Shown here in pieces: positions 1 to 60,117 of a DNA stretch of 64,000 nucleotides. The stretch lies in NCBI RefSeq assembly GCF_009739905.1, contig NZ_CP034279.1, positions 2,232,001 to 2,296,000 of the forward strand, read 5' to 3'. This DNA is from Streptomyces ficellus. Its GTDB lineage: Bacteria; Actinomycetota; Actinomycetes; Streptomycetales; Streptomycetaceae. The translations under genes and the position numbers were made by a program. Below the pieces are notes generated by a model. That model was not told the origin of the DNA. It worked only from the letters and a program-made list of their open reading frames with translations, and did no database searches. Position 1 is the first letter of the stretch. Every line of letters begins with the position of its first letter.

Positions 1-3000
1 TCGACGAGAACAGCACGAAGGCGCTCAGCCCGCGGTCCCGGGTCAGCTCGTCCAGGTGCGCGGCCACGTCGACCTTCGGCCGGAAGACGGTGGCGACGTC
101 GTCCGCGGTGAGCGACTCGACGGTGCCGTCCGCGACGACCCCGGCCGCGTGCACGACGGCGGTCGGCGGATGGGCGGCGAGCAGGGCCGCGACGCCCTCC
201 CGGTCGGTGAGGTCCACAGCGACAGCGGTGACGTCGGCCCCCAGCGCGGTCAGTTCAGTCACGAGTTCCGCGGCGCCGGGCGCGTCCGGGCCCCGGCGGC
301 CGGCCAGCACCAGGCGGCGGACCCCGTACGCGGTGACCAGGTGCCGGGCGACCAGGCGGCCCAGTGTCCCGGTGCCGCCGGTGATCAGCACGCTGTCGCC
401 CCAGTCCGGCGCCGCTGCGTCGGTCGTGCGGGCGCGGACCACGCGCCGTGCCAGCACGGCCTCCCCGCGCAGGGCGAGTTGCGGCTCGTCGAGGGTGACG
501 GCACCGGCGAGCAGGGGCGCGGACGGCGTTTCGGCGGGGTCGAGTTCCAGCAGCAGGAACCGGCCCGGGTGCTCCGTCTGGGCCGTCCGTACGAGGCCGT
601 AGGCGGCGGCGGCCGCCAGGGCGTCGGACCCGCCCTGCCCCTCCGGGAGACCGGGGGCGACCGTGTCACCGGGGGCGCCGGTTGTCGCGGCGTGACCGAG
701 GAACACCAGCTTCGATTCGCTGAACCGCGCGTCGGCGAGCCAGGCCTGGATCGTCCCGAGCGTGCCGACGGTCGCCTCCAGCGCACCGGTGGACGCCGGG
801 ACGGGGACGAAGACCACGGCGGGAGCCGGCCGGCCCTCGTCCATCGCCGTGCCCAGCCCGTAGAGGTCCGCGAAACGCGCCACCTCGGTCCCGAGCCCCT
901 CGGCCACGCCGAACAGGTCCTCGCCGACCACGGCCCAGCCACCGCCGTCCACCGGGACCGCTCCGCCGCTCGGGGCGACCTCCACCCACTCGGGGCGGTA
1001 CAGGTGCTCCGGTGTGCGCGTCGCGCTCCCGGCGGCTGGGGGCCGTACGAGGAGGGAGTCGACCGTCAGCACCGGCCGGCCGCCACCGTCGGTGGCGAGC
1101 ACGGCGAAGGTGTCCGTGCCGGTGGGGGTGACTCGTACCCGCAGGGCGGACGCCTTCCCGGCGTGCACGGTGACACCGTTCCAGGAGAACGGCAGCTTCG
1201 CCTCCGCCACCGGCCCGACCAGCGCGGCCGAGTGGACGGCCGCGTCGATCAGCGCGGGATGGAGGGTGAAGCCGGCCGTGTCGGGAGCGGTCTGCGGCTC
1301 GATCTCGGTGAACACCTCGTCGCCGCACCGCCAGGCGGCGCGGATGCCGCGGAACGCCGGCCCGTACTCGAGACCGGTCGCCGCCAGCTCCTCGTACAGT
1401 CCCGCCACGTCGACCGGCTCGCTCCCGGCGGGCGGCCACGACAGCAGCCGCCCGTCCTCGGCCGGCTCCCGCGGCTCGGCGCCCAGGGTGCCCGTGGCGT
1501 GCGTGGTCCACTCCTCCAGCGCGCCGCCGCGCCCGTGGACGGTGACGGCGCGCCGTCCGTCGTCCGCGGCCGCGCCCACCGACACCTGGAGCTGGACCTC
1601 CCCGTCCTCCGGCAGGAGGACCGGCGAGACGATCACCAGCTCCTCGAGCGTGCCACAACCCACCTCGTCCCCCGCCCGGACCAGGCACTCGACGAGCGCC
1701 GCGCCGGGCAACGGAACCACGCCGCCGACGCGGTGCTCGGCGAGCCAGGGGTGTTCACGGATCGAGAGCCGGGCGGTGAACACGTGCCCGCCCGAGCCGG
1801 CGAGCGCGACCGCCGCGCCGAGCAGGGCGTGTCCGGTGCTTTCCAGACCGGCCGAGTGCACGTCGCTCCGCTGGGAGCGGGACGCTTCGAGCCAGTAGCG
1901 TTGGCGTTGGAAGGGATAGGTGGGCAGGTCGACCCGGGTGGCGGCGGTCCCCTCGAACAACACCCCCCAGTCCACCGCGACACCCGACGTGAACAACCGC
2001 CCCAAGGCCGACAGGAACGCCTGCTCCTCCGACCGGTCCTTCCGCAACACCGGCACCGTCACCGCACCCGGCACCACACCCGCCGCCATCCCCGACAACA
2101 CACCATCAGGACCCAGCTCCAAAAACACCGACACCCCGGCATCGGCAAGCGCCCGCACCCCATCACCGAAACGCACCGCCTCCCGAACATGCCGCACCCA
2201 GTACTCCGGCGACGACACCAACCCAGGACCAGCCACACCACCCGTCACATTCGACACCAACGGCATACGCGGCTCGGAGAACGACAACCCCTCCACCACC
2301 GCACGGAACTCCGCCAACATCGGCTCCATCAACGGCGAATGAAACGCATGCGACACCCGCAACCGCGACGACTTCCGCCCCGGCAACGCAGCAACCACCC
2401 CCTCCACCGCACCCACATCACCCGCGACCACCACAGCCTCAGGACCATTGACCGCAGCGATCGACACCCCCTCACCCAACAGCGGCAACACCTCCGCCTC
2501 AGACACACCCAACGCCACCATCGCCCCACCCTCCGGCAGAGCCTCCATCAACCGCGCACGCGCCCCCACCAGCACACACGCATCCTCAAGCGACAACACC
2601 CCCGCCACATGCGCCGCAGCCACCTCACCAATCGAATGACCCGACACAAACTCCGGCACCACACCCAACGACTCCACCAACCGGAACAACGCCACCTCAA
2701 CCGCAAACAACGCCGGCTGAGCCCAACCCGTCCGACTCAACAACCCCGCATCCGACCCCCACACCACCTCACGCAAACCATCAAACCGCCCCACCACCTC
2801 ATCAAACACCCCCGCAAACACCGGGAAACGCCCATACAACTCCCGGCCCATACCCAAACGCTGAGCACCCTGACCCGAGAACAACACCCCCACCCGACCC
2901 ACACCATCAACCACACCACGCGCCGCCTCCACCACACCCTCAGCAGAAGCCAACACCACCGCCCGATGACCAAACACCGACCGACCCAACAACGACCAAC

Positions 3001-6000
3001 CCACATCCACCCGGCCCCGCGCACCCACCGGCGAACCCACCGAACCCAGGGCCACCAGCCGCGCATCCAGCGCCCCCGCCGACTTCCCCGACACCACCCA
3101 CGGCACCACACCCGGCACCGAACCGGGCACCGAACCGGGCACCGACTCCCCGCCACCAGACACCGACTCCGCAGCGCCAGGCACCGACTCCACCCCCGGC
3201 GCCGACTCCAAAATCACATGCGCGTTCGTCCCACTGATCCCGAACGACGACACCGCAGACCGACGCACACCCCCAACAGACCCCGGCCACGCGACGTTCT
3301 CCGTCACCAACTCCACCGCACCCGACGACCAGTCCACATGCGGCGACGGCGCATCCACATGCAACGTCCGAGGCACCACACCCGCACGCATCGCCATCAC
3401 CATCTTGATCACACCACCCACACCCGCAGCCGCCTGCGCATGCCCGATGTTCGACTTCAACGACCCCAACAACACCGGACGCCCACGATCACCACGCCCA
3501 TACGTCGCCAGCAACGCCTCCGCCTCAATCGGATCACCCAAAGACGTCCCCGTCCCATGAGCCTCCACCACATCCACATCCACCACCGACAACCCCGCAC
3601 CCGCCAACGCCTCACGGATCACCCGCTGCTGCGACGGACCATTCGGCGCCGTCAAACCATTCGACGCACCATCGGAGTTGACCGCGCTGCCGCGCACCAC
3701 GCCAAGGATCCGGCGCCCGTTGCGCACGGCGTCGGACAGCCGCTCCAGCAGGAGAACACCAGCACCCTCGGACCAGCCGACGCCGTTGGCGGCCGCCGCG
3801 AAGGCACGGCACCGGCCGTCCGGGGACAGGCCGCGCTGGCGGGAGAACTCGACGAAGGTCTCGGGTGACGCGAGGACGGTCACGCCGCCGGCCAGGGCGA
3901 GGTCGCACTCGCCCTGCCGCAGCGCCTGCGCCGCCAGGTGCAGGGCGACCAGCGACGACGAACACGCCGTGTCCACGGTCAGGGTCGGACCCTCGAAGCC
4001 GAAGGTGTAGGAGACGCGGCCGGAGGCGACACTGCCCGCGGTCCCCGTGCTCACGTATCCCTCCAGCTCCTCGGGCACCCCACCGAGCCGCGACACATAG
4101 TCGTGGTGCATCACGCCGGCGAACACGCCGGTGCGGCTGCCGCGCAGCGAGACCGGGTCGATGCCGGCCCGCTCGAACGCCTCCCACGACACCTCCAGCA
4201 GCAGCCGCTGCTGCGGGTCGGTGGCCAGTGCCTCCCTCGGGCTCATCCCGAAGAACTCCGCGTCGAAGTCACCGGGGCCGGTCAGGAAGCCGCCGTGGCG
4301 GGCGTAGGAGGTCCCGGGTGTGTCCGGGTCGTCGTCGAAGAGACGGCCGAGGTCCCAGCCGCGGTCGGTCGGGAACTCGCCGATCGCGTCGACACCTTCG
4401 TGGACCAGGTTCCACAGGTCGTCGGGGGACTCGATCCCGCCCGGGTAGCGGCAGCCCATGGCCACGATCGCGATCGCCTCGTCGTCGGCGGCCCGGGCGG
4501 GCCGTGCGGCGGGCGCGGTGGCCGGGAGGGCCGTGCCGGTCAATTCGTCGCGGATGTGTGCGGCGAGCGCGGCGACCGTCGGGTAGTCGAAGGCGACCGC
4601 CGCGGGAAGCCGCAGCCCGGTGGCGGCGGCGAGCCGGTGGCGCAGCTCGACCACGGTCAGCGAGTCGAAGCCGAGGTCCCCGAAGGACCGGTCGGCGTCC
4701 GCCGCGGTGAGCGCGGCCCTGCCGAGTACCGTCGCGACCTCCGTGGCGACGAGTTCCCGGACCGTCTCGGTCCGTGCCTGCTCGGGCAGGCCGAGGAGGC
4801 GCTGCGTCAGTGTCGTGTCGCCGCCGCTCGCGGTGCGGCGGGCGGGTGCGGGCGCCAGGCCGCGCAGTACGGCGGGCACCGGGCCGGTGGCCTGGGCGCG
4901 CAGTGCGGCGGTGTCGATGCGCGCCGCGACCACCGCGGCGCGGTCCCCGTGGAGCGCGGCGTCGAAGAGCGCGAGTCCCTCGTCCGTGGTCAGCGGGGTG
5001 ATCCCGGAACGCTTCAGCCGCTTGACGTCCGCCTCGGCGAGGGCGCCGGCCATGCCGCCGTGCTCAGCCCACAGCCCCCAGGCGATGGAGGTCGCGGGCA
5101 GTCCGATGGCGCGTCGGTGCTCGGCGAGGGCGTCGAGGAAGACGTTGGCCGCGGCGTAGTTGGCCTGGCCCGCCCCGCCGAGGGCGCCCGACACCGAGGA
5201 GAACACGACGAACGCGTCGAGGGGCGTGCCGTCGGTCAGTTCGTGCAGATTGACGGCGGCGTCCACCTTGGGGCGCATGACGGCGTCGATGCGGTCGGGG
5301 GTCAGGGCGGCGAGTACGCCGTCGTCGAGGACTCCCGCGCTGTGCACGACAGCGGTCAGCGGGTGTGCCGCGGGTATCCCGGCCAGGAGGGCGGCGACCG
5401 CGTCCCGGTCGCCGGTGTCGCACGCCGCCAGGGTGACGCGGGCGCCGAGGTCCTCCAGTTCGGAGACGAGACCGGCCGCGCCGGGGGCGTCGGAGCCCCG
5501 GCGGCCGGCCAGCAGCAGGTGCCGGGCGCCGTACGCGGTGACGAGGTGGCGGGTGATGACCCGGCCGAGCGCCCCGGTAGCCCCGGTGACGAGGACGGTT
5601 CCCTCGGGGTCGAGGTGGGTACGCCCGGTCTCCGCGCGCGGTGTGCGCGTCAGACGGGGTACGCGGACGGAGGTGTCGCGCAAGGCGAGCTGCGGCTCAC
5701 CGGTGGCGAGCGCGGCCGCCAGGAGCGGGCGTTCGGGTTCCGTGCCGGGTTCGCCGTCGACCAGGACGAAGCGGTCCGGGTGCTCGGTCTGCGCCGAGCG
5801 GACCAGGCCCCAGAGTGCGGCGTTGGGCGGGTCGCCCGCCTCTTCGCCGGAGGCGGCGGCCATGGCCCCGCGGGTGACGAACACCAGGCGGGACGCGGCG
5901 AACCGGTCGTCGGCCAGCCAGTGCCGCATCAGCGCCAGCGCACGGTGGGCGGCGGTACGGGCGGCCTCGGCGAGGGGACCGCCGAGGGGCGGGCACGGTA

Positions 6001-9000
6001 CCAGGACGGCGTCCGGTACGGGTCCGGCCGCGGCGAGCGCGTCGAGCCCGGCCGTGTCCGTGGCCTCGCCCCAGGTGGCGGGTGCGCCCCCGGTGCCGGC
6101 CGTCGGCGCGGACGTCCACTCGATCGCGTACAGGGGCGCGGTGGCCCCGGCACCGCCTGCCTGCGGGGTGGTGCCGGCGCGCAGGGTCAGCGACGTCACG
6201 GAGGCGACGGGCTGGCCGGCCGGGTCGGCGAGCCGGAGCGACACGGTGTCGCCGTCGCCGACCGGGGTGAGGGCGACCCGCAGGCGGGACGCGCCCGCGG
6301 CGGCGAGGCTGACCCCGGTCCAGGAGAACGGGAGGCGCAGTTCCGTCCCCGGCTCTCGGGTGTGGGTGGTGTGCAGGGCGGCGTCGAGGAGTGCCGGGTG
6401 GATGCCGTACTCGGACACGTCGGCCCCGTCGGGCAGGGCGACCTCGGCGAACACCTCGCCGTCCCGCCCGCGCCAGGCGGCCTTGAGGCCCTGGAACAGC
6501 GGACCGTAGCCGTACCCCTGGGCGTCGAGGCGTTCGTACAGTCCGGTCAGCTCGACGGGTTCGGCGCCCTGCGGGGGCCACTGGCCCGCCAGTGTGAACG
6601 TGTCGTCCGCGGGCTCCGGCCCGAGGACGCCCTCGGCGTGCCGGGTCCAGGTGTCGTCCTGGCCCTCCTCCTGCGCGAACACGCCGAACCGTCGGTGGCC
6701 GGAGTCGTCCGGCGCGTCGACCGTCAGCTGGATCCGTACGGCGCCGGTCTCGGCGAGCGTCAGCGGTGAGCTGAGGGTCAGCTCCGCCACGGTGGCGCAA
6801 CCGACCTCGTCGCCGGCCCGCACCGCCATCTCGACGAAGGCGGCTCCGGGCACGATCGCCCGGCCGCCGACAGTGTGCTCGGCCAGCCACGGGTGGGTCG
6901 CCCGGGACAGGCGGGAGGTGAACAGTACGCGTCCGTCGTCGGCCAGTTCGACGGCCGCCGCGAGCAGGGGGTGCCCGGCGGCGGACATGCCCGTCGCGCG
7001 CACATCGCCGGATCCGGTGCCGTGTGCTTCGAGCCAGTAGCGTTGGCGTTGGAAGGGATAGGTGGGCAGGTCGACCCGGGTGGCGGCGGTCCCCTCGAAC
7101 AACACCCCCCAGTCCACCGCGACACCCGACGTGAACAACCGCCCCAGCGCCGACAGGAACGCCTGCTCCTCCGACCGGTCCTTCCGCAACACCGGCACCG
7201 TCACCACACCCGGCACCACACCCGCCGCCATCCCCGACAACACACCATCAGGACCCAGCTCCAAAAACACCGACACCCCGGCATCGGCAAGCGCCCGCAC
7301 CCCATCACCGAAACGCACCGCCTCCCGAACATGCCGCACCCAGTACTCCGGCGACGACACCAACCCAGGACCAGCCACACCACCCGTCACATTCGACACC
7401 AACGGCATACGCGGCTCGGAGAACGACAACCCCTCCACCACCGCACGGAACTCCGCCAACATCGGCTCCATCAACGGCGAATGAAACGCATGCGACACCC
7501 GCAACCGCGACGACTTCCGCCCCGGCAACGCAGCAACCACCCCCTCCACCGCACCCACATCACCCGCGACCACCACAGCCTCAGGACCATTGACCGCAGC
7601 GATCGACACCCCCTCACCCAACAGCGGCAACACCTCCGCCTCAGACACACCCAACGCCACCATCGCCCCACCCTCCGGCAGAGCCTCCATCAACCGCGCA
7701 CGCGCCCCCACCAGCACACACGCATCCTCAAGCGACAACACCCCCGCCACATGCGCCGCAGCCACCTCACCAATCGAATGACCCGACACAAACTCCGGCA
7801 CCACACCCAACGACTCCACCAACCGGAACAACGCCACCTCAACCGCAAACAACGCCGGCTGAGCCCAACCCGTCCGACTCAACAACCCCGCATCCGACCC
7901 CCACACCACCTCACGCAAACCATCAAACCGCCCCACCACCTCATCAAACACCCCCGCAAACACCGGGAAACGCCCATACAACTCCCGGCCCATACCCAAA
8001 CGCTGAGCACCCTGACCCGAGAACAACACCCCCACCCGACCCACACCATCAACCACACCACGCGCCGCCTCCACCACACCCTCAGCAGAAGCCAACACCA
8101 CCGCCCGATGACCAAACACCGACCGACCCAACAACGACCAACCCACATCCACCCGGCCCCGCGCACCCACCGGCGAACCCACCGAACCCAGGGCCACCAG
8201 CCGCGCATCCAGCGCCCCCGCCGACTTCCCCGACACCACCCACGGCACCACACCCGGCACCGAACCGGGCACCGACTCCCCGCCACCAGACACCGACTCC
8301 GCAGCGCCAGGCACCGACTCCACCCCCGGCGCCGACTCCAAAATCACATGCGCGTTCGTCCCACTGATCCCGAACGACGACACCGCAGACCGACGCACAC
8401 CCCCAACAGACCCCGGCCACGCGACGTTCTCCGTCACCAACTCCACCGCACCCGACGACCAGTCCACATGCGGCGACGGCGCATCCACATGCAACGTCCG
8501 AGGCACCACACCCGCACGCATCGCCATCACCATCTTGATCACACCACCCACACCCGCAGCCGCCTGCGCATGCCCGATGTTCGACTTCAACGACCCCAAC
8601 AACACCGGACGCCCACGATCACCACGCCCATACGTCGCCAGCAACGCCTCCGCCTCAATCGGATCACCCAAAGACGTCCCCGTCCCATGAGCCTCCACCA
8701 CATCCACATCCACCACCGACAACCCCGCACCCGCCAACGCCTCACGGATCACCCGCTGCTGCGACGGACCATTCGGCGCCGTCAAACCATTCGACGCACC
8801 GTCCTGGTTCAGGGCCGATCCCCGGACGATCGCGAGCACGGGGTGGTCGTTGCGGACCGCGTCCGAGAGCCGCTCCAGGAGGAGCATGCCGGCGCCTTCG
8901 GACCAGCCGGTGCCGTTGGCACCGGCGGCGAAGGCACGGCACCGGCCGTCGGGTGACAGCGCCCGCTGGCGGGAGAAGTCGAGGAACACCTGCGGCGAGG

Positions 9001-12000
9001 CCATGACCGCCACGCCGCCGGCCAGGGCGAGGTCGCACTCGCCCTGCCGCAGCGCCTGTGCCGCCTGGTGCAGGGCGACCAGCGACGACGAGCACGCCGT
9101 GTCCACGGTGACGGCCGGGCCCTCCAGGCCCAGGGTGTAGGCGATGCGGCCGGAGGCGACACTGCCGGCCGCCGCGGTGCCGAGGTAGCCCTCCAGCTCC
9201 TCGGGAACGCCTTCGTAACGCTCCGCGTAGTCGTGGTGCATGAGACCGGCCCAGACGCCGGTGCGGCTGCCGCGCAGCGAGACCGGGTCGATGCCGGCCC
9301 GCTCGAACGCCTCCCACGACACCTCCAGCAGCAGCCGCTGCTGCGGGTCCATCACGAGGGCCTCGCCGGGGGCGATGCCGAAGAAGCCGGGGTCGAAGTC
9401 GCCGACGTCGTGCAGGAATCCGCCGTGGCGGGTGTAGCAGGTACCGGGTGCGTCCGGGTCCGTGTCGAACAGCGCGGCGAGGTCCCAGCCGCGGTTCGCG
9501 GGGAACTCGCCGATGCCCTCACGGCCTTCGACGACGAGGCTCCACAGGTCCTCCGGGGAGGTGATGCCGCCCGGGTAGCGGCAGCCCATGGCCACGATCG
9601 CGATCGGCTCGTCGTCGGCCGGCCGGGGGCGACGCGACGCGGGGGTGGCGGTGTCGGCGGGCGTACCCGTCAGTTCGGCGGCGAGGTGGCGGGCCAGCGC
9701 TTCGGGGGTGGGGTGGTCGAAGGCGACGGCGGCGGAAAGGGCGAGACCGGTGGCCTCGACGAGCCGGTTGCGCAGCCGGACCGCGGTCAGGGACGTCAGG
9801 CCGAGTTCCTTGAAGGCCCGGTCCGCGGCGACGGTCGTGGGCGCGTTGTCGCCGAGGACGGCGACGACCGCGGCCACGACGCGCTCGACGAGTGCCGCCC
9901 GACGCGCGGCGTCGGTGAGCGGCTCCAGCTCGTGGGCGAGCCGGGCGCGTACGGAGGCGTCGGGCGCCGTCCAGTCGTCCGCGGTGTCGGCCGCGCGCGG
10001 TGGCAGGAGGAGGTGGGCCGCGGGCCGGGCCGGGCCGGGGGCCAGGAGGCCTGTGTCCGGGCCGGTCAGGGCGGTGTCGAACAGGGCCAGTCCGTCCCGG
10101 ACGGGGATCGCCGTTTCGTCACCGTCGGCCCAGGCGGCCGTGGCGAGCAGGGCGCCGGTGCCGCCATGGGCGCGGTGGGCGCGGACGAGGGCGGCGGCGG
10201 AGGCGGTGGACGCGCCGGCGTCCTGACCGTCGGCGCCGAGGGCCGTGGTCAGTGGGGCGATCACCACGAGGGCGGGCAGGCCGCTGCCGCCGGCGGCCTC
10301 GTACAAGGCGTGCAGGGCGTGCGTGTCGTCCGGGTCCGGGCCGTCGGCCATGGGCGCGGCGTGCACGAGCGCGGTCACCGGGCCGTCCAAGTCGGCCACC
10401 GCGTCGGTGGTGGTGCGGACGTCGGCACCGAGGGCGGTCAGTTCGGCGGTGAGCGCGGCGAGGCCCTCGCTGTCCCGGTCGGTGAGCAGCAGGCGGCGTA
10501 CGCCGTGACCGGTGACGAGCTGCTCGGCGACGGCGGCGCCCACGGTCCCCCGTGCGCCGGTGACGACGGTGAGGCCGTCGGGGTCGAGGCGGGGGACGGC
10601 CGTGTGGGGTGCGGCCGCCGGGGCGAGCCGTGGGACGAGGGCGTCGCCCGCGCGGACGGCGATCCGAGGCTCGCCCGATTCGACGAGCCGGCGCAGGGCG
10701 TCGGGGGTGATGGCGTCCTCGTCGAGGTCGACGAGGACGAGCCGTCCGGGGTGCGCGGTCTGGAGGGACCTCAGCCGGGACCATGCTTCTCCGGCCACCG
10801 GGCCGGTCTGGAACGCCGCGTCCACGGCGCCCCGGGTCACGACGACGAGCCGTGACGGCGCCGGGGGGTTCCCCTCGTCCGTGCGGCCCGTCTCGTCGGC
10901 GAGGTCCGCGAGGCGGGCGGCGACACCGTCCGCCAGGTCGGCGGGGTCGCCGAGCGGCCGGACGACGGCCGGGTCGCCCTCGGCGGTCTCCGGGCTCCCG
11001 CCGTGCAGTTCCCAGGCGCGGGTGTCGGCGCTTCCGCTGTCCGGCAGCGGTACCCAGTCCAGGCGGAATAGGCCGTCGACGGTGCCCGTACCGGTGGCGA
11101 GGAGCCGGCGCGGCTGGTCGAGCAGGGCGTCCCGGACGATCTTGCCTGAGGGAGTCCGCAGGATGCGAGCGACGGTGTGGAGTTCCTCGGGGACCTTGTA
11201 GTACGACAGCCGGGTGCGGCACTCGGCGAACAGGCGCGGCGCGTCGACGCCGTCGGGGCCCGGTACGACGAGAGCCACCGGGACCTGCCCGAGGACGTCG
11301 TGGGGCACCGCGACGACGGCGGCGTCGACGACGCCGGGGACCTGGCGCAGCACCTCCTCGACCTCGCCGGGGTGGATGTTCTGGCCGCCGCGGATGATCA
11401 GCTCCTTGATCCGGCCGGTGACGGTGAGGAAGCCGTCCGCGTCGCGGCACGCCAGGTCGCCCGTGCGGTGCCAGCCGTCCGCGGGGGGCGTGGCGGTGCC
11501 GGTGGCACCGTCGTAGTAGCCGAGCATGACGTTCGGTCCCTGTACCCACACCTCGCCCTCCTGGCCGGTGGGGACGTCCTCGCCGGTCCGCGGGTCGACG
11601 AGCCGGAGTTCCAGTCCCGGCAGCGGGCGTCCGCAGGAGCCGTGCACGCGCGGGCCGTCGGGTGCGTTGGCGGTGATGGGGCCGCAGGTCTCGGTGGTGC
11701 CGTAGCTGTCGAGCAGGTCGACGCCGAACCGTTCCCGCACCAGGGCGCGCAGGGGCTCGGAGGCGACGGAGCCGGCGGTGAGGCAGACGCGCAGCGTGTC
11801 GGACACACCGGTGCCGCGTTCCCGGGCCGCCTCCACCAGCTGGTGGTACATGGCCGGGACGGCGGCGAGGAAGGTGAAGTCGCGGGTCGTGAGCAGTTCG
11901 AGTGCCTCGCCCGCCGAGAAGGCGGTCATGATGTGGGCGGTCGCGCCGACGGCGGTGACGCCGAGCACGCCGAGGTGGTGGCCGAGGCAGTGCGACAGGG

Positions 12001-12685
12001 GCAGCGGCCACAGGACGTGGTCGTCACCCGAGAGGCCGAGCGTCGGCGCGTAGCAGGCAGCGACGGTCCACAGGGAGTTGCGCGTGGTGGACAGCACGCC
12101 CTTGGGGCGGCCGGTCGTCCCGGACGTGTACAGCATGAAGGCCGGGTCGTCGAGGCCGAGGTCGTCCCGGGCGGGCCGCGTGGGTTCGGTGGTGGCCAGG
12201 GTGGTGAACGAGACCGTGCCGGAGGGTGAGCCCGCGGGCAGGGTGTCGCCTGTGACGACGACGATCAGGCCGGGGTGGCGGGGCAGCAGCGCGCGGATGT
12301 CGTCGAGGCGGGCGGGGTCGGTGACGAGGAGGCGTACGCCGGCGTCGGTGAGGATGTGGTCGAGTTCGTCGCCGCTGGTGCGGGGGTTGACTGGAATGCC
12401 GATGCCGGAGGCCCTGGCGATCGCGTGGTAGCTCTCCACCATGTCGACGCCGTTGTCGAGGTGGATGGCGGCGCGGTCGCCGCGGTCCAGGCCGAGCGTG
12501 CGGAAGTGTCCGGCCAGCCACGCGGTGCGGCGTTCCAGCTCGGCGTAGTCCACGCTGCGCCGGGCGTCGGAGAAGGCGGTCTTGCCGCCGAGCCGCTCGG
12601 CTTGGTCCCGCAGCAGTTCGTGCAACGGCCGGATCAGATCGCTGCGCAGCACTTCAGCACTTCCCTCGGTGTCGTTCTCGGTCAT
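1..12685 (-). CDS. Starter modular type I PKS: AMP-ligase/KR-like/ACP loading module plus two KS-AT-DH-KR modules (C-terminal part outside window)
   Basis: First enzyme of the assembly line; it activates a carboxylic acid and starts chain growth. ATG at 12685 lies 31 bp after the chorismatase-DAHP synthase stop; at least 4,228 codons are visible. Approximate residues: AMP-ligase 1-520 with the [11 protein letters not shown] core near 190; KR-like region with TGARGTVG near 710; loading ACP near 963 reading GLTSL instead of GxDSL. Module 1: KS from about 1027 (DTACSSS near 1192), AT (GHSIGE, HAFH: malonyl type), DH (H-x3-G-x4-P near 1935), KR (TGATGALG near 2368, ANYAAAN), ACP near 2673. Module 2: KS, AT (GHSIGE, HAFH), DH with intact motif, KR (TGGTGTLG), and the window ends at the KR FSS serine motif. 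Both KRs carry a B-type LDD/VAD-like signature. The ligase-first layout resembles rapamycin/FK506 starter PKSs, but those carry an ER-like domain where this has a KR-like one (family knowledge). The substrate is inferred from the adjacent chorismatase. Confidence 0.95.
1884..3670. repeat. Copy B of a 1.78-kb near-identical intragenic repeat (KS C-terminal part + AT, module 2)
   Basis: This 1,787-bp stretch matches 7026-8800 almost base for base. By eye I find three substitutions (two adjacent to the AT C-terminal end near 2006-2012, one near 2061) and a 12-bp indel where this copy has an extra unit near 3115-3140, in the KS-AT linker. It covers the last third of the KS, the linker, the whole AT and the post-AT linker. 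The coding strand here uses many TTG, GGT, GTT and GCT codons, unlike the flanking C/G-ending codons. Both edges are sharp. Confidence 0.95.
7026..8800. repeat. Copy A of the 1.78-kb near-identical intragenic repeat (KS C-terminal part + AT, module 1)
   Basis: The 1,775-bp partner of 1884-3670, in the same orientation about 5.14 kb away within the same gene. Homologous recombination between the copies would delete or duplicate exactly one module in frame. Identity stops abruptly just after the shared [12 protein letters not shown]-coding region on the KS side and at the post-[11 protein letters not shown]-coding region on the other. Confidence 0.95.
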
Positions 12686-12716: not shown

Positions 12717-14915
12717 TCAGGCCGGTCCGAAGACGCGGTCGACGAGGTGGGCGGCCTGCTCGCTGTTGAGCCGGGGGTCGCACAGCGTCGTGTAGTGGCG
12801 TTCGACGTCGTCCGGGCCGTGGACCGGCCCGCCGATGCACTCGGTGACGTCCTCGGCGGCGGTCTCCAGGTGCAGCCCACCCGGGTGTTGGCCGTGGGCG
12901 CGGAGGATGTCGCGGAAGCGGAGGGCCTCGTCGACGAGGTGGTCGAGGTGGCGCACCTTGATGCCGGAGGGCAGCTTGACGGTGTTGCCGTGCATGGGGT
13001 CGCTGAGCCAGACCACGGGGTGGCCGGCGTCGCGGACGGCGCGGACCACCGGGGGCAGGAGGGTGCCGATGTCGGCGCTGCCCATGCGGACGATGAAGGT
13101 GAGCCGTCCGGGTTCCCGGTGCGGGTCGAGCGCCCGGCACAGGGCGAGGACACCGTCGGGTGTGGAGCGGGGTCCGATCTTGCAGGCGACGGGGTTGATC
13201 ACCGAGCCGAGCAGGGCGACGTGGGCGTGGCCGGGGTCGCCGGTGCGTTCACCGACCCACGGGTAGTGGGTGGAGCCGAGGAATCGGTCGCCGGTGGCCT
13301 CGTCGACGCGTACCAGTGCGCCGGTGTAGTCCATGACGAGCGCGTCGTGGCTGGACCAGGGGCCTGGGTGGACACCGTGCAGGGTCGCCCCGCGGTGGCC
13401 GCGCAGGGTCCGCTGGACCTCGTCGCTGAAGTGGTAGGCCCACAGCATGCGGACGGGGTCGTGCTTCCTGGCCTCGGGGGACCGGCCCTCGGCGTTGACC
13501 ATGTGGCCGCGGAAGGCGGGCAGTTCGACGCCGTCGACCACTTCGAAGGGGGTGGAGCGGGGCTTGGCGTACTGGCCGCCGATGCGGCCGATCCTGACGA
13601 CGCCGCGCCCGGTGTGGTGGCCGAGCCGTCCGGCCAGTGCGTCCAGGGCTTCGATCTTCGCCCGGGTGTGGTCGGGAGTGCTCTCGTAGAAGCTTTCCGC
13701 GCAGTCCCCGATCTGAAGCACGTGGGCCTCGCCGGCGGCGACCTCGGCGAGCCGGTCGCGCAGTTCGCGGACCTCGCCGGGAAGGACGAGGGGCGGGGCG
13801 GCCGTGAGGGTGGCCTTCACCCGCTCGTAGGCGGGGTGGTCGCCCCACTGCGGCTGCTGTCCGGCGGGCAGGTGCTCCCACTCGGGCGTGTGCCGGAGGT
13901 TCGAGACGTGGTCGCGGACAACGATGCCCTCCAGCTCGACGAGCAGGTCCGCGCGGCAGATGTCGGCGTTGAGGAACACCATGTCGACGGCCGGCGAGAG
14001 GGCCTCTCGGCAGATCCTCTCGACGCGGGCGATGTCCGACTGGTGGCGGACGTAGACCTTCACGGCGCGCAGGTCGTCGAGGGTGCAGCCCCGTCCGATG
14101 CCGTGCACGGAAAGGTTCCTGCCGCCGATGACGTGGGCGATGTTGTCCAGGGCCAGCCGGCACTGCGCCTCCACGTCGCCGGGGTGCATGGTGCGGTGGC
14201 CGAGGATGCCGGCGGTGCCGGACACGTAGAGCTGTTCGCCGCCGCCGTCCTGGGCGAGATAGGTGGCGCGGGCGAAGTTGGGGGCCTTGGGGCCGTACCG
14301 GCTCGGATAGTGGTAAGGCGGCACCTGGCGCGGGTTGTCGATGTTGACCTGGGTGCCGGCGCGGCAGGCGAGGAAGTAGAGGACGATGCCTCCGCCGTGC
14401 GCGCCGATGACGGTCGCGGCGGGCATGTCGTCGGTCATTCCGTACCGTTCGAGGGCGCGGGCCCGGCCGACGCAGAACTCCCGGTAGACCTCCAGGCCCG
14501 CCGCGTTCTCCTCGTTGACGCGGCTGATGTAGTGCCACACGCGGTAGAGCCGGCCGTAGCCGAGGGTGCGCGTCAGTTCGACCGCTTCGGTGTAGGCGGT
14601 TTCGGTGGCGTCGACGTAGTCGTCGCTCTCCGGTATGCGCGCGGCGCAGAACAGGAACTCGCCGTCCACGGCGTAGGACAGCGTGCCCGACCGGCCCGCC
14701 CGGACCGGCCGGGGCGAGGTCCACACTTCGGCGAACCCCTCCTCCACGGATCTGGCGATCTGGATGCCGACCACCGGGTGCCCGGCGTCCGTGCCGGGGT
14801 CCGACGGTTCGTGCGTGAAGTCGACCCTGCCCAGGACGTGCCGGCCCGGCGCCACCCGGTCGGCGGTCTTCAGACTCTGGAAGGTGACCGTCGGTGCGTA
14901 CGTACTGCTCGTCAT
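12717..14915 (-). CDS. Chorismatase (FkbO/Hyg5 family) fused to class II DAHP synthase
   Basis: A 732-residue two-domain enzyme. Residues 1 to about 338 match chorismatases, which cleave chorismate to pyruvate plus a (dihydro)hydroxybenzoate used as a PKS starter; visible family signatures are NIDNPRQV (191-198), YGPKAP (207-212), VSGTAG (231-236) and C320-x6-E327 before the domain end. Residues about 345-732 are a short class II DAHP synthase, the first shikimate step: the QIGDCAESF cysteine (C405), GRIGGQYAKPRS (443-454), KIGPRS (579-584), DPMHGN (639-644), LETAAED (683-689) and DPRLN (713-717) supply the expected metal and PEP/E4P ligands. The long N-terminal regulatory part of primary-metabolism class II enzymes is absent, as in PhzC-like secondary-metabolism forms, suggesting weak feedback control (inference). 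GGGGGA precedes the ATG. It lies immediately upstream of the AMP-ligase PKS, so it probably feeds that enzyme. Whether the acid is 3-hydroxybenzoate or a dihydro compound is not settled. Confidence 0.93.
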   Translation of the reverse strand: MTSSTYAPTVTFQSLKTADRVAPGRHVLGRVDFTHEPSDPGTDAGHPVVGIQIARSVEEGFAEVWTSPRPVRAGRSGTLSYAVDGEFLFCAARIPESDDYVDATETAYTEAVELTRTLGYGRLYRVWHYISRVNEENAAGLEVYREFCVGRARALERYGMTDDMPAATVIGAHGGGIVLYFLACRAGTQVNIDNPRQVPPYHYPSRYGPKAPNFARATYLAQDGGGEQLYVSGTAGILGHRTMHPGDVEAQCRLALDNIAHVIGGRNLSVHGIGRGCTLDDLRAVKVYVRHQSDIARVERICREALSPAVDMVFLNADICRADLLVELEGIVVRDHVSNLRHTPEWEHLPAGQQPQWGDHPAYERVKATLTAAPPLVLPGEVRELRDRLAEVAAGEAHVLQIGDCAESFYESTPDHTRAKIEALDALAGRLGHHTGRGVVRIGRIGGQYAKPRSTPFEVVDGVELPAFRGHMVNAEGRSPEARKHDPVRMLWAYHFSDEVQRTLRGHRGATLHGVHPGPWSSHDALVMDYTGALVRVDEATGDRFLGSTHYPWVGERTGDPGHAHVALLGSVINPVACKIGPRSTPDGVLALCRALDPHREPGRLTFIVRMGSADIGTLLPPVVRAVRDAGHPVVWLSDPMHGNTVKLPSGIKVRHLDHLVDEALRFRDILRAHGQHPGGLHLETAAEDVTECIGGPVHGPDDVERHYTTLCDPRLNSEQAAHLVDRVFGPA

Positions 14916-14986
14916 TGCCTTATCCCCCGTGGCCTCGTGCCGGGCTGGCTACAGTCCCGGTCTTGGGAACATTGCTCCTGCGCCGG

Positions 14987-17900
14987 TCACGAGCCGTTGC
15001 GACCGAGCGCCAGCCGCACCAGTTCCTCGGCGTCCATGTTCTTGATGGCGTGCTCCGCTGCCTCGGCGGCCTCGGAGGTGCGGCGGTCCGCGGGGGCGGC
15101 GCCCCCGGGCTTGTCAGCTTCGGCGGTGTCCGTGGCGGGCGCGGGCATAATGCGCCCGGCCAGCCAGTCCGCCACGGCCTGCGGTGTCGGATAGTCGAAG
15201 ATCAGAGTCGAGGGCAGGCGCAGTCCGCTGACCGCGTCGAGCCGGTTGCGCAGCTCGATGCCGGTGAGCGAGTCCAGCCCGAGGTCGAGGAACCCGCGGT
15301 CCACCACCACGGTCGCCGGGCCGGCGTGCCCGAGGACGGCGGCGACGTGTTCCCGTACGACGGCGAGGACCTCGCGGGCCCGGTCCTGCTCCGGCAGGTC
15401 GGCCAGCCGGGCGCGGAGCGCGGCGGACTGGTCGGACCGCTCGGCGGTCCTGGCCCTGGGGAGCCGGACGAGGCCCCGCAGCAGCGGCGGCACCTGCTCG
15501 GCGCGGGAGAACAGCCGGCGCAGCGCCCTGACGTCGAGGCGGGCGGGCACGAGGGCGGCTTCGCCGGTGCCGGTGGCCAGGTCGAAAAGGGCGAGGCCCT
15601 CGTCGGTCGTCAGCGCGGTGAGCCCGACGCGGGCGGCACGGGCGCGGTCGGCCTCGGCTAGCCGGTCGACCATGCCCCCGTCGGCCTCCCAGGCTCCCCA
15701 GGCCAGGGCCTGGGCGGGCAGTCCGTGTTGCCGGCGGTGGGCGGCGAGGGCGTCGAGGAAGGCGTTCGCGGCGGCGTAGTTGGCCTGTCCGGCACCGCCC
15801 AGGGTGCCGGACAGCGACGAGAACAACGAGAAGAACCGCAGGTTCGTGCCGCGGGTCAGTTCGTGCAGGTTCCAGGCGGCGTCGACCTTGGGGCGCAGGA
15901 CGTCCTGCAGCTCGCGCTCGGTGAGCGTCTCGAGCATGCCGTCGGCGAGGACACCGGCGGCGTGGACGACTCCGGTGAGCGGCCGGTCCTGCGGTACGGC
16001 GTCGAGGACGGCGGCCAGCGCGGCGCGGTCGGACACGTCGCACGCGGCGATCTCGACCTCGGCTCCCAGGTCCCGCAGCTTTGCGGCCAGTTCGGCGGCA
16101 CCCTCGGTGGCGGGGCCGCGGCGGCTGAGGAGCAGGAGCCTGCGGGCGCCGTGCCGGACGACCAGGTGCTCGGCGAGGGCGGCGCCCAGGGCCCCGAGGG
16201 CTCCGGTGACCAGGACGGTGCCGGCCGGGTCGGGTGCCGGCGCCGCCGGGGCTCCGGTGGGCGCGGGGCGGGCCAGGCGGGGCACGAGGGGCTCGCCGTC
16301 GCGGAGCGCCGCCTGGGGTTCTTCGAGAGCGAGGAGGCCGGGCAGGGCGCGGGCCGACGCCTCGGTGCCGTCGGTGTCGACGAGGACGAACCGGTCGGGG
16401 TGCTCGGTCTGGGCGGTGCGCAGCAGGCCCCACACCGCGGCGCCGGTGAGGTCGGCGGGGGCGTCGCCCACGGCGCCCCGGGTGACCACCACGAGCCGTG
16501 CGGCGGCGAGCCGTTCGTCGGCCAGCCAGTCCTTGAGGGTGGTGAGCGTGGCGAGTGCGGCGTGCCGGACGGCGGCGGGCAGGTCGGCCGGGGTGCCGTC
16601 CGGGGCGGTGTGGGTGAGCACGACCAGGGCGGGCGGGGTGGCGCCCGCGTCGAGCGACCGGCGCAGGGCGCTGAGGTCGGGGTGCCAGGAGCCGTCGCCC
16701 CACTGGGCGCGCAGCGCTCCGGAGAGGCGTACGTCGTCGGCGCCGAGTGCCGCCCAGGGGCCCGCCGGGCGGGCGGAGCCCTCACGGGGCGGCGGCGGGT
16801 CGGCGGGGGCCCACTGCACGTGGAAGAGGGCGTCGTCCGTCGTGTCGCAAGCGACCAGTTGGTCGGGCGCCACCTCGCGCAGCCGGATCCTGTCGACGGT
16901 CACCACGGGGAGGCCCGCGTGGTCGACGGCGGTCAGGGACAGGGTCTCCTCGTCGGCGGCGACGATCCGGACCCGCAGGGCGACGGCGCCCCGGGCGTGA
17001 ACTGCCACGTCCTGCCAGGCGTACGGCAGTCGTGTCTCGCCGTCGGCCTCGTCGTAACCGACCAGGGCGAGGGACTGCAGGGCGGCGTCCCAGAGGGCCG
17101 GGTGGAGGACGAAGCCGCCGGTCTCCTCGTGCCGGGCCTCGGGCAGGGACACCTCCGCGAACACCTCGGCGTCCCGGTGCCACAGGGCACGGACGCCCTG
17201 AAACGCGGGCCCGTAGTCGTAGCCGCGTGCGGCGAGCCGTTCGTACACGCCGTCGATGTCGACGGCGGTGGCGTCTGCCGGCGGCCATGCGCCGGTGAGC
17301 CCGGCCGTGTCGGGGACGGTGTCCGGTTCGGGGGTGACCGTCCCGGAGGCGTGGAGCTCGAAGGGGTCGTCGGGGAGGGCGTCCTCGCGGCGGGAGTGGA
17401 CGGTGAGCGCGCGGGCGCCCTCCCCGTCCGGGGCCGACAGGGCTACGCGAAGGTGGACGGCCGTGTCGGCGGGCACGAGCAGCGGGGCGTGCAGGGTGAT
17501 GTCCCGGACGGCGGGGCAGTCCGCGGCCTCGCCGGCGCGTGCCGCCAGTTCGACGAGTCCGGTGCCGGGCAGCAGGGCGGTGCCCCACATGGCGTGGTCG
17601 GCGAGCCAGGGCTGGGTCTCGGCGGAGATCCTGCCGGTGAGCAGCATGCCCTCGGATGCCGGGAGTTCGGCGGCGGCCCGGAGGAAGGGGTGGCGGACGG
17701 CGGTGAGGCCGAGTCCCGCCGCGTCGACGGTGTCCTGGTGCGGGGCGGTCCAGTAGCGGCTGCCCTGGAAGGCGTACGTGGGCAGTTCCAGCCCGGGGTC
17801 GGGGTGGCCGTCGAAGACGGCGTCCCAGTCGACGGTGACGCCGTCGGTGTGCAAGCGCGCCAGGGCGGCGAGCACGGTGCCGGTCTCGCCGCGGCCGCGC

Positions 17901-20449
17901 CGCAGGAGGGCGGCGAACACCGCGTCACCGGTGTCGTCCACCCCGGCGAGGGTGTCCTGGGCGGCCGGGGTGAGCGCGGTGTCCGGGCCGATCTCCAGGA
18001 ACCGGGCGGCGCCTTGTGCGCGCAGGGTGCGGACGCCGTCGGCGAAGCGCACGGTGCCGCGGACGTGGGCGGCCCAGTACTCGGGTGAGCGGGCCTGTTC
18101 GGCGGTGAGGAGTTCGCCGGTGACGTTGGACACGACGGGCAGGCGGGGCGCGTGGGAGCTGACGGAGGACAGGACGGCGGAGAACGCCTCCAGGGCGGGC
18201 TCCATCAGCGCGGAGTGGAAGGCGTGCGAGGTGCGCAGGGGCCTGGTCCGTACGCCTTCGGCGCGGCAGGCGGCGGCGACCTTGTCGACGAGCGCGTCCT
18301 CGCCCGACACGACCACGGCGGAGGGCCCGTTGACGGCGGCGATGCTCACGTCGGCGCCCAGGGCGGCCATGAGGTCGCGCACCCACTGTTCGGGGGCGGC
18401 GACGGCGACCATGGCGCCGCCGGCGGGCAGGGCGTCCATCAGGCGTCCGCGTTCGGCGACCACCTTCGCCGCGTCGGGCAGGGACCAGACGCCGGCGATG
18501 TGGGCCGCGGTCAGTTCACCGATCGAGTGCCCCGCCAGGAGGGTCGGGCGCAGACCCCAGCTCGCGGTGAGCCGGTGCAGGGCCACTTCGAGGGCGAACG
18601 TCGCCGCCTGGGTGTAGGCGGTGCGGTCGAGGAGACGCGCGTCGGCGGTGTCGGGTCGGGCGAACAGCACGGTCTTCAGAGGCCGTTCGAAGTGGGGGGC
18701 GAACGCGGCGCACACCTCGTCGAGGGCTTCGGCGAAGACGGGGTACGCCGTGTACAGCTCGTGGCCCATGCGGGGCCGCTGGGCGCCCTGGCCGGTGAAC
18801 AGCACCGCGAGCCCGCCCTGTCGGCGTGCCCGGACGCCGGCGACGTGGGTGTCGGCCTCGCCGGCCGCGAGAGCGTCGAGTCCGCGCAGCAGGTCGGCCC
18901 GGTCGGTGCCGAGGACGGCCGCGCGCACCGGCATGGCCGTCCGGCGGGTCGCGAGGGCCATGGCGACGTCGGCGGGTTGGGCGTCCTCGTGGTCGTCGGC
19001 CCAGGCGCGCAGCCGGGCGGCCTGGGCGCGCAGGGCCTCCTCGGTGCGGGCGGACAGGATCCAGGGGGCGGTGTCGATGTGGGGCCGCGTGGGTGTGGGC
19101 CCGGCACTCTCGGGGGCCTGTTCGAGGATGACGTGGGCATTGGTGCCGCTCAGTCCGAAGGAGGACACGGCCGCTCGGCGGGGCCGGCCGGTCTCGGGCC
19201 AGGGCACGGGGCTCAGGGTGACCAGCCGGACGTCGCCGACGGTCCAGTCGACCTGGGGTGAGGGCTCGTCGGCGTGCAGGGTGGGCGGGACGGTCCCGTG
19301 GCGCATGGCCTGCACCATTTTGATGATGCCGGCCACGCCCGCGGCGGCCTGGGTGTGGCCGATGTTGGACTTGACGGACCCGAGCAGCAGTGGGCGGCCG
19401 GCGGGCCTGCCGGTGCCGTAGGTCGCCAGGAGGGCCTGTGCCTCGATGGGGTCGCCGAGGCGGGTGCCGGTGCCGTGGCCCTCGACGACGTCGACGTCGG
19501 CCGGGCCGAGGCCGGCCCGGTCGAGGGCGCCTTGGATGACCCGCTGCTGGGAGGGGCCGTTGGGGGCGGTGATGCCGTTGGATCTGCCGTCCTGGTTGAC
19601 GGCCGAGCCGCGGATCACCGCGAGGACGGGGTGGCCGAGGCGGCGGGCGTCGGAGAGCCGCTCGACGAGCAGCACTCCGACCCCTTCCGCGAATCCGGTG
19701 CCGTCGGCTCCCGCGCCGTAGGACTTGCACCGGCCGTCCGTGGCCAGTCCGCGCTGGCGGCTGAAGTAGACGAAGGTGTCGGGGGTCGTCATGACGGTGG
19801 CCCCGCCGACCAGGGCGAGCGAGCAGTCGTCGTCGGCGAGTGCCTGGCAGGCGACGTGGAGGGCGACCAGCGACGAGGAGCATGCCGTGTCGACCACGAC
19901 GGCCGGGCCCTCGAGGCCGAAGGCGTAGGCCACGCGTCCGGCGGCCATGCTGGCGGTGTCGGTGGACGGGCCGGAGGACATGATGCCGCTGAATACGCCG
20001 ACGCGGCCGCCCCGCAGGGTGTCCGGCCGGATGCCGGCGCGTTCGACGGCTTCGGCGGAGCACTCCAGCAGCAGTCGGTGCTGGGGGTCCATGGCCAGCG
20101 CCTCGCGGGGGCTGATGTCGAAGTACCCGGCGTCGAAGGAGGCGGCGTCCTGGAGGAAACCGCCCTCCCGGACGTAGCTCTTGCCGACGGCGTCGGGGTC
20201 GGGATCGTAGATGCCCGAGACGTCCCAGCCCCGGTCACCGGGGAATTCGGCCACCGCGTCGCGCCCCTCGGTCACCAGCCGCCACAGGTCGTCCGGCGAA
20301 GCCACTCCACCCGGATACCGGCATGCCATTCCTACGATTGCCACGGGCTCCGGGAGCCGGTTTTCCGCCGTGTGCAGACGTTGCCGCAGGTCCTGTATCT
20401 CCGCCGTCGCGCGCCTCAGATAGTCGACGTACTTCTGCTCGTCAGCCAT
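14987..20449 (-). CDS. Type I PKS, single module KS-AT-DH-KR-ACP
   Basis: An 1,820-residue one-module extension PKS. The N-terminal class 1 docking helix ([15 protein letters not shown]) spans residues 7-21. KS about 35-460 with DTACSSS near 187; AT with GHSIGE near 641 and HAFH near 745, pointing to malonyl-CoA; DH with [11 protein letters not shown] near 953 and a DAALQ second motif; KR with TGALGALG near 1412, FSSLSG and ANYAAAN, B-type VLAD signature; ACP serine in GLDSL near 1725; C-terminal docking helix [12 protein letters not shown]. All catalytic motifs look intact, so the module should add two carbons and leave a double bond. ATG at 20449 follows a strong GGGGGAG ribosome binding site. 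Its place in the assembly order is unknown, because modules are missing to the left of the window. Confidence 0.95.
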
Positions 20450-20602
20450 TGTCTCCCCCGTTAATCAGACGCATCCCGAAAGCGCATTCCGGCACGCCGC
20501 ACGGAACACCGAACCAATCACCCGGGCAGCCTGGGACGCATGACGGCGGGTGAGGAAAAAGAAAGTGGATATGGAAAGGTTTTTACCCGAAGCGGAATGA
20601 AC

Positions 20603-54018: not shown

Positions 54019-54783
54019 TCACTGAGGGCGGGGGCGGTACAGCGTGCCGTCCCCGCCGTACGCCGCATCGTGGCGCACCACGGTGCACTCGGCTCCCAGG
54101 ACGGCGACCGCCGCCCGGTAGCCGGTGCCCGGGTCGACGTCCTGGAGCCGCACCGGCAGGTGCGGCTCCTTCCGGTCGTCCCAGGCCAGCAGCGCGGCGG
54201 GCTCCTCCGGGGCGCTCACCGTCAGCCGGGCCGGCTCCACCATCAGCCCGTCACCGGTCGCCTTGAGCACGGCTTCCTTACGCGCCCAGTAGCGGGTGAA
54301 CCCGGCCGCCCGCTCGGCCTCCGGCAGCCGCTCCAGCGCGGCGCGCTCCGCGGTGGACAGCACCGCCGGCGCCAGCTCCGCCGCCCGGTCGCCCGCGGCG
54401 ATCTCCTCCAGGTCCACACCGACCGGGCCGGCGAGCGACAGCGCGACCGCCACCCGGCTCCCCGAGTGCGACAGCGACAGTTCCAGCGGCGATCCGGCGA
54501 GCCCCGGCTTCCCGTGCGGCTCGGGCCGGTCGCAGTGGCGGCACTCCAGGACGAACCGCACCTCGCGCGGACCCATGCCCAGCTGCTCGGCGACGACCTC
54601 GCGGGCCAGCGCGTGCGCGGTCAGGTACAGGGCGCGGTCCTGTTCCCGGGCGAAGGCGTCGTGGCGGGCCAGCTCCCGGTCGTCGAGCAGCTCAAGCAGC
54701 CCGGGTACGCGGACGGCGCCGACCGCTTCGGCGAACCAGACGTGGCACTCCCCCGCTCCCACGCGCGGTATGCCGGTGCTCAC
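54019..54783 (-). CDS. 4'-phosphopantetheinyl transferase, Sfp type
   Basis: 254 residues from GTG 54783 (GGAGGG 10-11 nt upstream). An ATG at 54849 overlaps the upstream stop as ATGA and would add 22 residues, but those are encoded by the intergenic C/G-run element, so GTG is preferred. Sfp-type motifs: GVDLEEI near residue 130 with the Mg-binding acids, and WARKEAVLKATGDGL near 180. LSLSHSGSRVAVAL is the usual earlier motif. It attaches phosphopantetheine from CoA to carrier domains, and could activate the PKS and NRPS carriers 20 kb away even though its position reflects core synteny rather than the cluster. Confidence 0.93.
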   Translation of the reverse strand: MSTGIPRVGAGECHVWFAEAVGAVRVPGLLELLDDRELARHDAFAREQDRALYLTAHALAREVVAEQLGMGPREVRFVLECRHCDRPEPHGKPGLAGSPLELSLSHSGSRVAVALSLAGPVGVDLEEIAAGDRAAELAPAVLSTAERAALERLPEAERAAGFTRYWARKEAVLKATGDGLMVEPARLTVSAPEEPAALLAWDDRKEPHLPVRLQDVDPGTGYRAAVAVLGAECTVVRHDAAYGGDGTLYRPRPQ

Positions 54784-54830
54784 GCCACGTTGACCCTCCC
54801 CCAGGCTTCGCCCGGGGGTACCCCCATCCA
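54784..54830. repeat. Intergenic C/G-run hairpin element, second copy of the type at 49158
   Basis: Between the phosphopantetheinyl transferase start and the DUF2550 stop, the + strand reads CCCTCCCCCAGGCTTCG followed by CCCGGGGGTACCCCC. The two runs can pair around GCGAAGCC, as in the 49158-49201 element. It probably belongs to a dispersed Streptomyces repeat family. Confidence 0.55.
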
Positions 54831-54845
54831 GCGGGGCGCCTTTAT

Positions 54846-55974: not shown

Positions 55975-58370
<2,396 letters not shown>

Positions 58371-58390
58371 GAGTCAGGTCCCTTCCGTCG

Positions 58391-59989
<1,599 letters not shown>

Positions 59990-60117
59990 CTGGGTTCCCT
60001 GCTCTCCTTGTTGGGCCCGAAGTTTCTTTGGGGGATCTGGGGGCTCCCCCCAGAACTTCTGCATCCTCTGCACGGCCCAACCGGGCCGTAGGTAACGCTT
60101 TGTCTGTTTGGTGCTGG

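Follow-up and report, generated by a model that had tools for sequence, protein, structure and literature searches.

The Polyketide Synthase Locus and Its Internal Repeat

The stretch analyzed here, hereafter the window, comprises 64,000 nucleotides of the Streptomyces ficellus genome (contig NZ_CP034279.1, positions 2,232,001 to 2,296,000), and our subject is a pair of near-identical, strand-skewed segments of the type called genetic repeats of intense nucleotide skew (GRINS) within a modular type I polyketide synthase (PKS) gene. The gene, delimited by its open reading frame, occupies positions 1..12685 on the minus strand, starts at 12685 and continues past the window edge to genome position 2231077, with a full product of 4536 amino acids. 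Its Pfam domains (KS, AT, DH, KR, ACP) identify an assembly-line PKS of the cis-AT type, in which a loading part is followed by two KS-AT-DH-KR-ACP modules. The loading part (9656-12685, minus) has, by inspection only, the appearance of a putative CoA ligase - KR-like - ACP arrangement. Module 1 (4496..9625, minus) contains KS, AT, DH, KR and ACP domains, and the window's piece of module 2 (11..4495, minus), which runs past the window edge, contains KS, AT, DH and a partial KR. Each has an orthologous module in a congener (genome G284) and in Actinophytocola algeriensis (locus L071).

The repeat lies at 7026..8800 in module 1 and at 1884..3670 in module 2, both on the minus strand, and spans the C-terminal half of the KS, the KS-AT linker, the AT and the post-AT linker. 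Aligned from 1884/7026 to 3670/8800, the copies are identical save for three substitutions (module 2/module 1: 2005/7147, TTG/CTG, Leu; 2006/7148, GCC/GCG, Ala; 2064/7206, GCG/GTG, Ala/Val) and one 12-bp gap, a Ser-Val-Pro-Gly unit (3114..3125, minus) that the module 2 copy has and the module 1 copy lacks and that is a single repeat of the 12-bp tandem array at 3102-3145. All three substitutions fall within the last 213 of 1775 bp of the repeat, near the tail junction described below (chance 0.0017 if uniformly placed). Mean best identity is 0.977-0.978 in both segments, against a median of 0.59 for 1154 fragments of 150 nt from window positions 1-34768, and beyond the repeat the identity per 50 bp falls to 0.54-0.74 on the 1884 side and 0.62-0.96 on the 3670 side. 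These values agree with a preliminary sequence-only reading, which had described two near-identical segments set between freely differing flanks. That reading had also placed the breakpoints within the KS and just after the post-AT linker; the 3' end does lie directly after the post-AT linker, but the 5' breakpoint precedes a conserved KS motif rather than following it, the first shared codon being the Gly of DGASNG. No third copy was found in the S. ficellus genome, where the next matches are at most 75% identical and incomplete in length, or 81% identical across 58 query bases.

The repeat carries an intense strand skew over most of its length. In the 553 codons of the skewed part of the module 1 copy, third positions comprise 383 G, 139 T, 31 C and 0 A, and the coding strand has a GC skew of 0.483 and a TA skew of 0.539, as against -0.083 and -0.002 in the rest of module 1. 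Bins of 25 codons wholly inside the skewed part have a third-position G+T fraction of 0.80-1.00 and no third-position A, with G+T elsewhere mostly 0.2-0.6. The commonest codons are GTG, GCG, GGT, TCG and TTG, and Leu is encoded by TTG 39 times versus CTG 10 times, whereas Leu codons in the flanks almost all begin with C. The codon bias previously noted in the segment is therefore real and confined to it, not gene-wide; of the codons singled out at that time (TTG, GGT, GTT and GCT), TTG and GGT are dominant, but GTT is rare (5 versus 86 GTG). What had appeared foreign in this codon use is intense strand skew, that is, strand-skew recoding. When the surrounding 104 kb is scanned at 500 bp, both skews exceed 0.25 only in these two segments, and their skew is among the strongest in a survey of 100 KS-AT segments from 29 groups, a sample biased by having been picked largely on DNA similarity to the skewed cassette and in which two groups are clusters of the same genome.

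The skew gives out near 2000/7140, about 110 bp short of the repeat's 3' end, and the copied tract thus also includes DNA of ordinary codon usage. This unskewed 3' tail, delimited by the codon table and by diagnostic columns, occupies 7026..7139 (minus) at the end of the post-AT linker in module 1 and 1884..1997 (minus) in module 2.

Assignment to the GRINS Class

A 2021 PNAS paper on GRINS reportedly holds that these elements speed PKS diversification, and is said to describe the way in which they arise as unknown. In the later literature, GRINS are defined as regions no shorter than 500 bp whose DNA is over 80% identical to some other part of their own PKS (PMC9899208), elsewhere worded as about 1 kb with often more than 90% identity (PMC10394414), with GC and TA skews above 0.25 and strand-skew recoding as a hallmark (PMC9899208, PMC10394414). 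We applied the sliding-window rule of PMC9899208, with ungapped in place of gapped identity. The rule delimits 1831-3750 (mean best ungapped identity 0.977) and 6961-8880 (0.978), with |GC| skew of 0.45 and |TA| skew of 0.51-0.52 over 1.9 kb in both copies, and both also satisfy the stricter wording of PMC10394414. The adjoining repeats at 3751-4320 and 8881-9450 are similar enough in identity and fall short in GC skew. The recoded sequence is moreover native to the PKS, its protein being nearest to an orthologous module 1 and its ATs belonging to a single six-member clade (see below). Judged by sequence, the two segments are a real and strong GRINS pair, a further example of an established element type.

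Published GRINS share a length of about 1-2 kb, more than 90% identity within the same cis-AT PKS, skews above 0.25 and a KS-AT location. The S. ficellus pair leaves that definition unbroken; its skew is among the strongest of the 100 segments compared, with A at third positions in 0 of 553 codons. Similarly, modules 3 and 6 of the azalomycin F PKS carry near-identical GRINS in two modules of one PKS, although that pair spans the KS-AT-DH-KR tetradomain (PMC9899208), whereas the repeat here stops after the post-AT linker.

Native Origin and Probable Recent Gene Conversion

To locate further orthologs, the loading-module protein was used as query against 41 genomes (S. ficellus and 40 relatives) and against 29 loci in contigs of other genomes. 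A syntenic cluster is present in the congener G284, with blocks 75-83% identical. Loading-module matches occur in 7 of the 41 genomes, S. ficellus included, the other six at 47-55%; among the 29 contig loci only that of A. algeriensis, with a 61% loading-module match, carries the same gene aligned along its whole length, and six others match at 45-54%. Both orthologs have a milder skew at the same place in module 1 (GC/TA 0.20/0.20 in G284 and 0.18/0.25 in A. algeriensis). In the A. algeriensis locus, positions 13301-15350 and 19051-20450 are mildly skewed in the same two modules, with scanning maxima of 0.33 for GC and 0.40 for TA.

These orthologs bear directly on the earlier suggestion that the cassette came from another source. 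Had a foreign cassette with another organism's codon usage been acquired and then duplicated, codon use wholly unlike the remainder of the gene would be expected, and this is what is seen. The closest relative of the cassette protein, nevertheless, belongs to the lineage of the cluster itself. In a search of the cassette protein against 290 genomes of the genus, with the four best candidates scored per genome and 133 of the 290 matching at threshold, the best match outside S. ficellus was module 1 of G284 (74%, 881 bits), followed by genome G232 (784 bits). In a tree of 46 AT rows, the other rows of which come from loci fetched for this analysis rather than from a random sample, the six module 1 and module 2 ATs of the three species group as a single clade (97/93). 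Third-position T sites in the S. ficellus cassette coincide with those of the two module 1 orthologs beyond the amino-acid expectation (19 versus 13.1, p=0.009; 16 versus 11.4, p=0.016), with no such excess for the module 2 orthologs (4 versus 5.0 and 11 versus 9.2). The milder skew already stands at the same place in both orthologs, and a profile of zero A, 69% G and 25% T at third positions is that of a strand skew, not of a low-G+C genome. Together with the pairing of the flanks described below, this leads us to reject horizontal acquisition, which we regard as highly improbable. A different concern is that an assembler or short-read polishing copied one cassette over the other, in which case the true copies would be less alike and the skew would still be real. 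The 1.78-kb repeat is longer than short reads, and each of the three substitutions is at most 181 bp from the 3' edge, reachable from unique flank, with none in the interior; yet the 12-bp difference inside the repeat, 545 bp away from the closer edge, was retained, the single contig of 7,078,240 bp suggests, without proving, the use of long reads, and other assemblies likewise contain near-identical skewed pairs (e.g., G224 1.00, G080 0.98, G096 0.98). An artefact of this kind appears improbable, though less so than a foreign cassette.

The earlier proposal of recent gene conversion between the modules has, by comparison, fared well. Amino-acid identity between module 1 of S. ficellus and module 1 of G284 is 0.84 in the KS N-terminal part, 0.63 in the DH and 0.70 in KR-ACP, versus 0.77, 0.44 and 0.52 between the two S. 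ficellus modules. The KS N-terminal, DH and KR-ACP flanks pair by module across the three species, therefore the modules split before the species did, and the ATs pair by genome in S. ficellus and A. algeriensis. The low identities between modules 1 and 2 in the flanks (DH 0.44) exclude recent duplication of a whole module. Since the modules are old and the cassette is identical within the genome, homogenisation followed the module split. It affected the cassette alone, and recent intragenic gene conversion as its route is well supported. The two A. algeriensis ATs are sisters in the AT tree (99/93), and this locus apparently underwent a separate homogenisation at the same place. Taken together, the data make it very probable that the segments are a GRINS pair native to the cluster, recoded and then homogenised by recent intragenic gene conversion.

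Comparable behavior has been described for other PKSs. In the concerted evolution of KS and AT domains, ATs likewise sort according to the gene cluster, and not the module, to which they belong, as a result of internal conversion; this is not tied to strand skew in the available text of that study (PMC4256081), whereas here the homogenised part is also recoded. In the "accelerated evolution" of the rapamycin and tylosin PKSs, a mid-KS recombination hot spot is described (PMC10661043), and the 5' breakpoint here likewise lies inside the KS, beside a conserved motif. Those events, as given there, are module deletions by in vivo homologous recombination, whereas the sequence here points to conversion without deletion.

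Donor and Direction of Conversion

The direction of copying was assessed at diagnostic columns, in which the two orthologs share one residue in module 1 and another in module 2 (93 in total, 17 in the cassette). Up to alignment column 804 the cassette columns comprise 8 of module 1 type and 2 of module 2 type, and from column 810 on there are 4 of module 2 type, 1 of module 1 type and 2 of neither. The third-position T sites shared with the module 1 orthologs point the same way as the columns up to 804. Module 1 is on balance the likelier donor, and we infer that the latest copying involved the approximately 1.56 kb on the upstream side of the junction, 5' in the gene. In the 3' tail, 27 of 39 module 1 residues match module 2 of G284 versus 22 of 39 for its module 1, and 22 of 39 match module 2 of A. 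algeriensis versus 19 of 39 for its module 1. This resemblance to module 2, together with the presence of all three substitutions there, suggests another tract, one that differs in age or in direction. Several observations weigh against these assignments. The AT tree rejects a clade of the S. ficellus ATs with the module 1 orthologs (p-AU 0.023) and does not reject one with module 2 of G284 (p-AU 0.224), although a grouping with both module 2 orthologs is rejected as well (0.014). The separate 3' tract rests on seven columns plus a DLPTY.. motif, and that motif is common in PKSs generally.

Replacement of AT specificity, put forward before as natural AT swapping, would be no more than a possible outcome of the conversion. 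The motif HAFH marks malonyl ATs and VASH methylmalonyl-type ATs; the module 2 AT carries HAFH in S. ficellus and A. algeriensis and VASH in G284, so that either type may have preceded the conversion in module 2; the AT tree singled out neither. The G284 module 2 AT (L046, 4484-6226) combines VASH with GHSLGE, the other five module 1 and module 2 ATs having HAFH with GHSIGE or GHSVGE, and remains in the six-AT clade on a long branch. It has possibly undergone replacement of the specificity motif within the AT.

Nature of the Recoding

We compared the cassette with module 1 of G284 at 267 four-fold sites encoding the same amino acid; G284 is a relative and not an ancestor, so the counts are differences, not events. 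From G284 to S. ficellus these are C>G 42, G>T 30, C>T 14, T>G 11, A>G 9 and A>T 1, with 2 changes from any other base to C and 0 to A. The recoding is dominated by transversions and has no deamination signature, a result new to this analysis. Protein sequence is affected as well. Among 55 replacements relative to a residue shared by both orthologs, G+T at codon positions 1-2 went up in 38, down in 5 and was equal in 12, versus 44/49/38 and 49/44/29 (up/down/equal) in the two flanks. Gly, Val and Ser were gained, and Ala, Thr, Glu, Asp and Gln were lost. The pressure acts on the whole DNA segment and not on codon choice alone, and this amino-acid bias is likewise new. A GT-rich ancestor, considered on the basis of changes along the G284 (3 up/18 down) and A. 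algeriensis (10 up/23 down) branches, was dropped because sites chosen for their match to a skewed sequence regress toward lower G+T.

Two other sources of the skew have to be weighed against these patterns. Strand-asymmetric mutation, through cytosine deamination on an exposed coding strand or pressure on a replication strand, would make the skew strand-specific, as it is, and leave conversion incidental. Replication direction was read by hand in the 33 genomes whose matched contig carries dnaA (three with dnaA at the contig start being taken as circularised). The PKS matches there are nearly all co-directional with replication, and coding and leading strand are therefore confounded, so that a replication-strand origin is inseparable from a coding-strand one. 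Against a mutational source, the four-fold differences are mostly transversions, which disfavors deamination as the sole cause, the skew stops sharply near the tract ends in 25-codon bins, and paralogous AT segments without the skew are found on that strand in the same gene clusters; we consider it unlikely. Selection on mRNA or translation in the KS-AT region, whether on codon usage or on RNA structure, would account for a predicted RNA structure of -35.7 kcal/mol per 100 nt, versus -48.4 +/- 1.2 for the same region in native codon usage. Codon selection alone, however, would not be expected to impose the G+T bias on replacements, the recoding leaves the neighboring KS N-terminal, DH and KR stretches of the gene untouched, and Leu shifts to TTG within the segment while remaining C-starting in the flanks. 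This explanation seems slightly less likely still than a mutational one.

In the replication survey, every listed KS-AT match in 32 of the 33 genomes runs with replication, away from dnaA, and in the remaining genome (G058) one of two is head-on. That single head-on match (G058, 7839845-7841677) is unskewed.

Single-Strand Structure and a Possible Mechanism

The predicted energy of single-stranded DNA in the segment is -11.6 kcal/mol per 100 nt for the coding strand and -7.2 for the template strand, and the flanks are predicted at -26.4/-28.2 (coding/template, 5' flank) and -26.4/-28.4. The same protein written in the gene's own codon usage gives a predicted -24.7 +/- 0.6 for the coding strand, and the module 1 counterpart in G284 is predicted at -21.9/-18.0. 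In these predictions the recoding leaves either strand with less than half of its single-strand structure, an observation new to this analysis; a literature search, which did not extend to the original 2021 description of GRINS, found no report tying GRINS to single-strand structure. Across the 100 KS-AT segments surveyed, identity to the best fetched paralog correlates with skew (Spearman 0.69) and with template-strand structure (0.70), and a paralog of at least 80% identity accompanies 31 of the 35 segments with both skews above 0.25, compared with 29 of the 65 others.

A mechanism linking these observations can be sketched. RecA filaments are most stable on TGG/TG-rich strands, an in vitro preference (PMC3763553). 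A G/T-rich coding strand and its C/A-rich complement would form little single-strand structure, so a recombinase might load and pair there without difficulty in DNA that is about 76% G+C. Efficiently converting segments would overwrite their paralogs, and the skew could then spread and deepen. That relief of structure makes the segment recombinogenic, and so links skew and conversion, is a tentative hypothesis that we hold to be possible rather than probable. More doubtful is the broader proposal that GRINS are single-strand-DNA relief elements, maintained by a self-reinforcing, strand-asymmetric biased gene conversion that pushes amino-acid change, with the mildly skewed orthologs as earlier or decaying stages.

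Several findings speak against this mechanism. Neither TGG nor Chi-like words show a clear excess over what codon usage gives (all z at most 2.5). A second PKS of the same genome has ATs up to 92% alike with GC skew of 0.03-0.11 and no strong skew; conversion therefore needs no skew, relief of structure would at most raise its rate, and identity alone does not create skew. Four of the 35 skewed segments have no fetched paralog of at least 80% identity, and 29 of the 65 unskewed ones have such a paralog. An inverse skew occurs in genome G058 (G058:C1:7794445-7796406; L133 12445-14406), with coding-strand GC of -0.37 and TA of -0.31. Structure and skew are, moreover, almost one variable, so their correlation cannot separate cause from effect. 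Conversion itself was deduced from flank pairing and the AT tree; a causal role of the skew in it is conjectural.

Selection for RecA triplets or Chi words was also considered and rejected. Both GGTGG and GNTGGTGG occur often on the coding strand, but shuffles among synonymous codons give similar counts, and such words are at most slightly commoner than in the shuffles (GTG z 1.98, GGT z 2.45). Since codon usage explains the words, composition is the special feature of the segment.

The locus offers a usable comparison, with the same two modules in three species, one intensely skewed and freshly homogenised and the others mildly skewed. It yields testable statements, namely that the recoding is not deamination-like, biases amino acids as well as silent sites, and lowers predicted single-strand structure. 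If relief of structure does drive conversion, codon design could promote or prevent recombination between PKS modules. The second PKS of the genome (G000:C1:4228399-4241989; L042 8399-18557, L043 178-1989), with ATs up to 92% identical in DNA, represents homogenisation without GRINS and is a useful within-genome control. The inversely skewed G058 KS-AT segment, with third-position fractions of 0.68 C and 0.11 A, is of a rare kind that is useful for testing mechanisms.

Other Features of the Window

A tandem-repeat array with units of 24, 27 and 54 bp lies at 41766-42167. Beyond the PKS genes, positions 54019-55131 hold a phosphopantetheinyl-transferase-like gene, with NCBIfam matches below cut-off, and 55975-60073 contains the F1 ATP synthase genes for the beta, gamma and alpha subunits.

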